Positions 39,744-41,230 of a stretch of DNA of 64,000 nt are shown here, one piece after another (position 1 is the first letter of the stretch; every line of letters starts with the position of its first letter). The stretch is from an uncultured Bacteroidota bacterium. GTDB taxonomy: Bacteria; Bacteroidota; Bacteroidia; Flavobacteriales_D; Sanyastnellaceae. A program made the translations under genes and the position numbers. The notes below the pieces were generated by a model that saw nothing but the letters and a program-made list of their open reading frames with translations, did no database searches and was not told where the DNA came from. The stretch spans positions 1-64,000 of the forward strand of contig CAIZGX010000035.1 of the NCBI GenBank assembly GCA_903932685.1. Direction: 5' to 3'.

Positions 39744-40142
39744 TTAGACGCGTTCTTGACACAATTCCACCAAAACTGAATTGCTACTTTTCGGATGAAG
39801 AAAGGCGATGAGCTTGTTGTCTGCACCTTCTTTCGGAGCTTCGTGAATCATGGTGAAACCCTCGGATTTCAATCGTTCTATTTCAGCATAAATATCTTGA
39901 ACTTCGAAGGCAATGTGATGCATTCCTTCTTTGTTCTTTTCGAGAAATTTTGCAATGGCGCTATCGGGAGAAGTGGCTTGAACAAGTTCTATTTTGGAGT
40001 CACCCACTTGGAAGAACGAAGTAATGACATTTTCAGATTCCACGCGTTCTTCCTTATATGGTTTTACGCCAAGCAGAGCAGAAAATATTTCGTTCGAGGC
40101 AGCAATGTCTTTCACTGCAATTCCAATGTGTTCGATTTTCAT
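39744..40142 (-). CDS. mce: Methylmalonyl-CoA epimerase
   Basis: Interconverts (R)- and (S)-methylmalonyl-CoA, linking propionate metabolism to the TCA cycle through the B12-dependent mutase. The 132-residue VOC-fold protein starts KIEHIGIAVKDIAASNEIF with the metal His4, has KIELVQATSPDSAIAKFLE and GMHHIAFEVQDIYAEIERL (second His), and closes with SNSVLVELCQ, where Glu is a metal ligand. It lies 7 bases after the Rieske-like gene. The cobalamin adenosyltransferase at 14.7 kb makes the cofactor for the partner mutase, which is not in the window. Confidence 0.95.
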   Translation of the reverse strand: MKIEHIGIAVKDIAASNEIFSALLGVKPYKEERVESENVITSFFQVGDSKIELVQATSPDSAIAKFLEKNKEGMHHIAFEVQDIYAEIERLKSEGFTMIHEAPKEGADNKLIAFLHPKSSNSVLVELCQERV

Positions 40143-40149
40143 AAAACAA

Positions 40150-40587
40150 TTAATTATACAAATGAAGATATCCGGTTACCGCATTGTAATCGGCGTTGTA
40201 CTGAAGCAAATTGTAATTTGCTGGACCGTTGATTAAGCTTCCGTCTGATAGCAACCACTTACTTCCTGAGCAAGTATCTGAAATGGTAACGTTGTCTGTG
40301 TTTACTTGGACATAACACGGATTGTCGGGATTGTAAGTGCTTCTTGCGTCGAAGACAGAAAACACATCGATGTCGTTTCGGTAAATAATTAAATCTACTG
40401 TGTTCCCGTCATAATAAAGCCATCCGGTTGGCACGGTGAGGTCGAAGAAAGAAGGCTCGAAAACATTAACGTAAATGGAAAATGAAATCTGACTGAGCAT
40501 TTGACTTCGATCAGTGCAGGAATGAATTGGAACGAACAGAAGTCCTAAGAATAAAAATCCTATTATGAGCTTTTTGACCTTATCCAT
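40150..40587 (-). CDS. Rieske-fold-like lipoprotein lacking [2Fe-2S] ligands
   Basis: A 145-residue exported protein with a near-lipobox (FVPIHSC, Cys24). The middle and end follow Rieske ferredoxin order: FSVFDARSTYNPDNPC (residues 76-91), SDTCSGSKWLLSDG (103-116), then INGPANYNLLQY (119-130), which fits the GPA...L..Y closing motif. In true Rieske proteins these regions carry CxH and CxxH; here the aligned positions are Ser83, Tyr85, Asp104 and Ser107. Cys91 and Cys106 sit where bc1-type Rieske proteins have their structural disulfide. So the fold appears kept and the cluster lost. The gene overlaps tsaB by 8 bases. Confidence 0.6.
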   Translation of the reverse strand: MDKVKKLIIGFLFLGLLFVPIHSCTDRSQMLSQISFSIYVNVFEPSFFDLTVPTGWLYYDGNTVDLIIYRNDIDVFSVFDARSTYNPDNPCYVQVNTDNVTISDTCSGSKWLLSDGSLINGPANYNLLQYNADYNAVTGYLHLYN

Positions 40588-41230
40588 TCAACGTGTTTTT
40601 TTTCGATTCGGTTGGAACAAATTCCTTCATGTAGAAAGGTTCAATTTGCGCCATGTGTTCTTCAAATTTAGCGGAAGAATTTGGTAATAACCCTATAAAA
40701 TGTTTGGCACTTGGCGATATTGCTTTTACCTCATCTTCCTTCCACATAAAATCATTTACTTTAAACGCAGCATCTCCAATAAAAATTGCCTTTTCAATTC
40801 CAAGATTGGCTCTCCATTCTTCATTCAGCGTAGCGAATGACCAACTTCCATTTGAATACACATAGGCGTCGTTTCTTCGTGCATCGATTAAAGCGACAGG
40901 GGTAAAACCGTTTTCACTTCCAACCGAATTAACCAAAAGTTCTCCTGTTGTTATGGTAATCAAACCTATGTTTAAAGCATATGCTAAGCCTTTGGCGGCC
41001 GTCACTCCAATGCGCAAACCGGTATATGAGCCTGGGCCAATTCCAACTGCGATTCCAGTTAAATCAGTTGGCTTTAGATTGTTTCGATCGAGTAAGTCTT
41101 TCACCATTTGATGCAGCGCTTCAGCATGAACGAATTCAGTTTCTTCGCGTTCCAAAAGATCTACAAGAGCGTTATCTTTTATGAGCGCAACACTGCAATT
41201 CCGCGTAGCGGTTTCCAAACACAAATACAT
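40580..41230 (-). CDS. tsaB: tRNA threonylcarbamoyladenosine biosynthesis protein TsaB
   Basis: TsaB is the ASKHA-fold partner of TsaD in making t6A37 on ANN-decoding tRNAs. The 216-residue protein has YLCLETATRNCSVALIKD, the His region EFVHAEALHQMVKDLL, AVGIGPGSYTGLRIGVTAAK and LIDARRNDAYVY, all standard. Its ATG overlaps the stop of the efflux adaptor (TAATG), placing an essential gene in the efflux transcript. Its end overlaps the Rieske-like gene. Confidence 0.95.
   Translation of the reverse strand: MYLCLETATRNCSVALIKDNALVDLLEREETEFVHAEALHQMVKDLLDRNNLKPTDLTGIAVGIGPGSYTGLRIGVTAAKGLAYALNIGLITITTGELLVNSVGSENGFTPVALIDARRNDAYVYSNGSWSFATLNEEWRANLGIEKAIFIGDAAFKVNDFMWKEDEVKAISPSAKHFIGLLPNSSAKFEEHMAQIEPFYMKEFVPTESKKNTLNG

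Follow-up and report, generated by a model that had tools for sequence, protein, structure and literature searches.

The window, by which we mean the whole 64,000-nucleotide stretch analysed here, carries a gene for a lipoprotein that has the Rieske fold and has replaced all four ligands of the [2Fe-2S] cluster; the gene is under purifying selection, and its family is parted from Rieske lipoproteins that keep the ligands. A Rieske annotation is normally taken to mean an electron carrier, and here a large and well-kept group of lipoproteins has the fold without the cofactor. Since relatives with the same ligand loss occur in most of the related genomes under study, an electron-carrier fold seems to have been put to a different use in the cell envelope. 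The reading that we favour, with a probability of about 0.72, is that of a repurposed, cluster-free and non-redox Rieske module, lipid-anchored, which would bind or scaffold an envelope partner through the base of its fold.

Results

The gene is an intact reading frame, present in one copy in the window genome, and its overlap with tsaB, pointed out in the first-pass annotation, amounts to 8 nt (Table 1). That annotation also took the protein to be exported and probably lipid-anchored, and the N-terminus bears this out: a basic n-region is followed by a hydrophobic stretch and then by Cys24 (MDKVKKLIIGFLFLGLLFVPIHSC; lipobox read by eye), which are the features of a bacterial lipoprotein (SPII), and the lipobox Cys is present in all 95 distinct sequences of the family. 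The housekeeping gene tsaB lies directly upstream in 95 of the 97 family loci with enough flanking sequence, and this adjacency is limited to loci near the window's family: the phylum loci that were checked showed no tsaB upstream, nor did 41 of the 80 loci L201-L280. Since the adjacency is kept only there, we read no function from tsaB. The glyoxalase-like gene is found downstream, at a distance of up to 600 nt, in 13 of 94 family loci; in other groups the lipoprotein gene has different neighbours, such as greA- and HIT-like genes (named by eye), and no partner or functional neighbour could be named in the loci examined.

Table 1. Coordinates of the lipoprotein gene, its domains and key residues, and the adjoining genes in the window.
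Feature	Position	Strand	Evidence or remark
Cluster-free Rieske-fold lipoprotein CDS	40150..40587	-	Intact ORF, 145 aa + stop
Sec-type lipoprotein signal peptide, residues 1-24, lipobox Cys24	40516..40587	-	Sequence; Cys24 in 95/95 family sequences; without Tat-like motif
Rieske-fold domain, residues 31-145	40153..40497	-	AlphaFold2 pLDDT 93-98 from residue 31; VIA model range 33-145
Ser83, first cluster-ligand (Cys) position	40339..40341	-	S 51 or A 44 of 95 distinct family sequences
Tyr85, second ligand (His) position	40333..40335	-	Nine different residues among 95
Cys91, structural-disulfide position	40315..40317	-	95/95 family; lost only together with Cys106
Asp104, third ligand (Cys) position	40276..40278	-	95/95 family
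Cys106, structural-disulfide position	40270..40272	-	95/95 family
Ser107, fourth ligand (His) position	40267..40269	-	S 85, G 9, T 1 of 95
C-terminal Asn145, hallmark of the cluster-free clade	40153..40155	-	Asn in 99/103 non-redundant cluster-free rows
tsaB, directly upstream neighbour, overlap 8 nt	40580..41230	-	Genomic neighbour
Glyoxalase-like gene, named mce by eye, 7 nt downstream	39744..40142	-	Neighbour only

Searched as a single sequence, the window protein gave no Rieske match in Pfam, NCBIfam or the PDB, only weak and chance-like ones (phage collar, SH3DP, tail fibre), and no relative in the viral collection. A profile made from a 33-row alignment of the window's family (A1) and searched against the PDB did match Rieske chains by sequence (8hn2, E 3.1e-4; 5cxm, 0.047; 9rk4, 0.064). 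In the profile alignment D104-x-C106-S107 is matched to the CPCH motif of solved Rieske proteins and C91 to their disulfide Cys; the first motif is aligned without gaps and S83 is not placed on the ligand Cys. Positions 83 and 85 were recognised as ligand positions from relatives that read C-T-H (L300) or C-T-Y (L283) there, and relatives are needed for this placement because the loop 85-91 is about three residues longer than the canonical one. The AlphaFold2 model, computed from an alignment of the window protein with 58 relatives from named records, has a mean pLDDT of 90.9 (93-98 per ten-residue block from residue 31) and a pTM of 0.77. With this model Foldseek returned 13 PDB matches at E 0.001 or better, the best being 8hn2 (E 2.8e-5), and VIA gave Z scores of 12.2 to 9rk4 (98 residues, 2.4 Å; residues 35-145), 12.1 to 5cxm, and 11.8 to both AioB 1g8j and 8hn2; the best 50 VIA matches are all Rieske proteins or complexes containing one. 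Membership of the Rieske superfamily, which the first-pass annotation had proposed from the order of the segments and which an unrelated structure would have overturned, is thus found both on structure and, with the family profile, on sequence. Profile, structure search, family-wide conservation and dN/dS agree that the resemblance is more than chance. AlphaFold2 cannot show cluster occupancy.

Curated families fare differently. The window protein matches neither PF00355 nor PF13806 in the Pfam scan, and a scan of the window genome for PF00355 gave no match at E 0.001. PF13806 is touched weakly by 9 of 33 family members (best E 8.3e-4, under the curated cut-off in those shown), L266 lies just over the PF00355 cut-off (21.0 vs 20.3 bits), two cluster-ligand controls lie clearly over it, and Pfam and NCBIfam scans of ten relatives each gave no curated family of their own. 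For many Bacteroidota genes an automatic label, where there is one, would mislead.

The residues that the first-pass annotation assigned to the ligand positions (Ser83, Tyr85, Asp104 and Ser107) and to the structural disulfide (Cys91 and Cys106) are exact, in identity and in coordinates. Among the 95 distinct family sequences (L090, L100 and L101, truncated or unrelated, were left out), Cys24, Cys91, Asp104, Cys106, Trp111 and Asp115-Gly116 are invariant. The four-ligand set CxH ... CxxH is absent from all of them, the only canonical ligand being His85 in 12; position 85 is otherwise Y in 37, F in 27, A in 12, W in 2, with others besides. All 39 cluster-ligand relatives have Cys at position 83, as the definition of that class requires. 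With nine residues admitted at 85, and S/A and S/G/T at 83 and 107, the site is unlike a metal site and, since the four-ligand test fails, we count the protein as a member of the Rieske fold and not as a Rieske iron-sulfur protein. In family f3 (L114-L119) an extra Cys at 82 beside S83 gives the domain an odd number of cysteines.

This copy is no one-off pseudogene, the possibility that could have undone the first-pass annotation: ligand loss is found in 95 of 95 distinct family sequences, and dN/dS lies between 0.010 and 0.083 in 15 pairs drawn from six genus sequences, with synonymous sites near saturation in most pairs. A protein search found a match in 101 of the 114 genomes of the window's family. 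At E 0.001, profile A4, made from the wider relative set, matches 145 of 150 order genomes, covering 54 of 54 genera, and 261 of 296 class genomes. In 25 of these 261, by hand count, the best E is above 1e-20, and the matched proteins there may carry the cluster ligands. Sixty further loci were read, hand-picked from the listed strong matches, with weak matches outside the sample; 59 are without the four-ligand set, and the sixtieth, a deliberately chosen second copy (L336), is canonical. The protein is a widely conserved candidate target for Flavobacterium envelope genetics.

L336, from a genome of the window's genus (G010) that also has the cluster-free L006, is a Tat-type Rieske lipoprotein with all four ligands, and cluster-free and cluster-ligand copies also stand together in G254 (L148, L182), G330 (L138, L185) and G278 (L123, L176). 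In these last three genomes the presence of both types marks them as separate lines, not mutual replacements there.

The wider comparison took in 229 distinct cluster-free and 39 cluster-ligand rows, after removal of five duplicates and of the unclassified L189 and L131; L194 and L195 were left out as Rieske tails of an oxidoreductase, and cluster-free counts over 234 rows include the five duplicates. Of the four canonical ligand letters, 110 of the 229 cluster-free rows have none left, 75 have one and 44 have two, which is the maximum. At 83/85/91/104/106/107 a common pattern is that of the window, S/A-x-C-D-C-S, and 120 rows fit a wider definition of this type (S/A/T at 83, D at 104, no C/H at 107); other common patterns are C-Y-C-D-C-C, C-N-C-C-C-D in a Flavobacteriaceae-like group, and A-H-x-C-K-D. 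L300, which reads C-T-H with D104 and C107, looks like an intermediate. Intermediate states in living relatives offer a stepwise view of how a cofactor is lost and an export route changed while strong selection is kept.

In an unrooted tree of 106 columns, built without the ligand and disulfide columns, a single branch separates the 103 cluster-free rows from the 35 that have the cluster ligands (SH-aLRT 98, and 97 in an earlier 105-row tree). Because the alignment is short and many branches are open (82 of 135 inner branches), we use only this main split. Cluster-bearing Rieske proteins are widespread in life, and from this spread we infer that the direction was loss of the cluster and not gain.

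The two sides of the branch also differ in their signals for export. A Tat-like motif, in its wider pattern, is found in 38 of 39 cluster-ligand and 5 of 229 distinct cluster-free rows (5 of 234 with duplicates), the strict RR form in 24 of 39 vs 0 of 229, RRx[FLIVM] on trimmed starts in 18 of 38 vs 5 of 175, and the Tat-like motif in stop-to-stop frames in 35 of 38 vs 1 of 175; the pattern was tuned after the sequences had been seen and the rows are related, so that Fisher values on these counts are not ordinary probabilities. In the five Tat-like exceptions among the cluster-free rows (L144, L265, L290, L302, L340) the hydrophobic stretch follows the basic residues without a break, in the manner of Sec signals. 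The window genome has TatC. A protein with a cofactor must fold before export and so uses Tat, whereas a cluster-free protein need not, and a Sec-type signal in place of a Tat-like one agrees with loss of the cluster, without proving it. Neither this change of signal nor the spread of the ligand loss over much of the class was visible to the first-pass annotation.

Discussion

We propose that the protein would act as a single Rieske domain, extracytoplasmic and lipid-anchored, that has lost the ability to bind a [2Fe-2S] cluster, and that it would probably be cluster-free when purified and take no part in redox chemistry. The former cluster tip would be a plain pair of loops, stapled in the window protein by one disulfide, C91-C106. 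The surface for binding or scaffolding would lie at the conserved fold base (G62, G65, Y130 and the C-terminal Asn), not at the old cluster tip. We place the function at the base because it is there that the cluster-free rows have conserved residues of their own: among 103 rows, G62 is kept in 99, G65 in 97, P45 in 98, Y130 in 100 and N145 in 99, and the cluster-ligand rows do not share the conserved residues at 45, 62 and 145. The window's genus departs from the GGSRG motif of its relatives, having N62 and D65, which makes a weaker case for that loop as the functional surface in this species.

The first-pass annotation had allowed two roles for a repurposed scaffold, non-redox or disulfide-redox. 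Under the second, which we consider unlikely, C91-C106 would be a redox couple that carries electrons or reports the redox state by thiol chemistry. The pair invites this idea, being invariant in the family and present in 216 of the 229 cluster-free rows, with no row keeping a single one of the two. The invariance holds, however, within the family only: both cysteines are missing in 13 of the 229, five of these having C83/C107 in their place, and no core cysteine at all is left in L309 and L321. It is on account of these 13 and of these two relatives that we favour the non-redox half of the original proposal. The pair is, moreover, structural in cluster-ligand relatives (present in 24 of 38 such rows), and the window protein is without a CxxC motif. 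Neither DsbB nor VKOR was found in the window genome at E 0.001, which counts against a redox couple and weighs also against the C91-C106 disulfide of our own reading; one DSBA-family protein is present.

How the cysteines travel together was followed across the cluster-free rows. On the tree, positions 91 and 106 change 8 times each (inferred changes), and a sign test on independent pairs over supported branches is not significant (3 pairs, p 0.25), so that their joint loss is taken from the raw counts and these inferred changes. C83 occurs with a Cys at 104 or 107 in 97 of the 229 rows, none of the three is found in 122, and C104 stands without C83 in 10; here the sign test had up to 4 informative pairs and was likewise not significant (p 0.125-0.5). 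Of the 103 non-redundant rows, 84 have an even and 19 an odd number of cysteines after residue 28. Two putative disulfides would account for the patterns, one between 91 and 106 that is usually kept and one between 83 and either 104 or 107 that is optional.

A different use of the old tip, the binding of a small molecule or polymer in the emptied cluster pocket, strikes us as distinctly improbable. The tip does keep the invariant D104 and a mostly aromatic residue at 85 (Y 37, F 27, W 2 of 95), but positions 83, 85 and 107 vary between groups, and the fold base is more conserved. Still harder to credit is that a metal or cluster is held by unusual ligands, be they S83, Y85, D104 and S107 or the C, Y, D and C of sister groups. 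The constancy of D104 (found in all 95 family sequences and in 184 of 234 cluster-free rows) could be read in this way, as could sister groups whose four ligand positions are occupied by C83, Y85, D104 and C107 (the pattern CYCDCC stands in 45 of 275 rows). Against it, position 85 takes ten residues in window-type rows, A, F, V and I among them, the Tat-like signal expected for a protein folded around a cofactor in the cytoplasm is missing, and D104 remains after the loss of both neighbouring Cys, in keeping with a structural role. In sister groups two or three Cys persist at the ligand positions or beside them (C83 with C107 or C104), and in these groups metal binding is possible, a point that we weighed against the non-redox scaffold reading. 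Finally, a decaying gene kept by its overlap with tsaB would lose its ligands in just this manner, and it does lie right behind tsaB in 95 of 97 loci, but the dN/dS of 0.01-0.08 in 15 pairs, the invariance of non-ligand residues, the lack of internal stops in any listed family match and the presence of the gene without adjoining tsaB in other groups, such as Flavobacteriaceae-like loci beside greA, refute this as far as sequence can.

Set against known Rieske proteins, the window lipoprotein shares its fold with the b6f/bc-type and soluble Rieske [2Fe-2S] proteins (PetC3 5cxm, Chlorobaculum Rieske 8hn2, Kuenenia kuste4569 9rk4; PF00355; VIA Z 11.8-12.2), and it also has in common with them the motif order, the position of the disulfide Cys pair and the DG and GPA motifs. 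It differs from them in the replacement of all four ligands and in having a Sec lipoprotein signal where they have a Tat-like signal or a membrane anchor. Tat-type Bacteroidota Rieske lipoproteins (part of L150-L192; L336) have the same domain, size, lipobox and phylum and are matched by the same profile; unlike the window protein they own the four ligands (CxH...CxxH) and a Tat-like motif, and they fall on the opposite side of the tree branch; in some genomes (G254, G330, G278, G010) they stand beside cluster-free copies. NirD, the small subunit of assimilatory nitrite reductase (PF13806 Rieske_2; 4aiv), is a Rieske subunit not known to bind a cluster, and it shares the fold (4aiv is Foldseek row 19, E 1.3e-3), but it is a cytoplasmic enzyme subunit and is not known to have a lipobox. 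Orthology with NirD was considered and rejected: the NCBIfam scan placed the window protein in no family, and two distant relatives reached TIGR02378 at E 0.08-0.11, far below the cut-off.

Cluster-free Rieske domains are already known, plant PSB33 being an example. In two papers, PSB33/LIL8/TEF5 of the green lineage is described as having a membrane-bound Rieske-like domain without cluster residues and a role in photosystem II assembly (PMC12164590), and its cluster binding as highly uncertain (PMC8003979). Compared by this description, it is eukaryotic, has transmembrane helices and sits on the stroma side of thylakoids, unlike the window lipoprotein. By analogy, the window lipoprotein may work as do other Rieske modules without a cluster, which act as subunits or take part in assembly. 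A literature search, with most subscription journals outside its reach, found no paper on the lipoprotein family.

A broader scenario for the whole class is more speculative, and we put it forward tentatively, as less likely than not. A Tat-exported Rieske ancestor would have lost its cluster once and then passed to Sec export. C83-C104/C107 would have become a second disulfide, dropped in the window's lineage, which keeps C91-C106, while other lineages would have dropped C91-C106 or both. The outcome would be a usually single-copy lipoprotein in most of class Bacteroidia, with a new function at the fold base and its near-invariant C-terminal Asn, perhaps in a core and so far unnamed step of the envelope.

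Two smaller observations concern the ends of the protein. At the C-terminus, the protein ends exactly in Asn in 94 of the 103 non-redundant cluster-free rows. At the N-terminus, one genus of the window's family, g18 (L085, L092, L093, L094, L096, L097, L098), has TsaB and the lipoprotein in one open frame with no stop between them, the upstream part matching the window's TsaB at E 1e-24 to 1e-28; this shared frame could be either a TsaB-lipoprotein fusion or a case of re-initiation within the frame.
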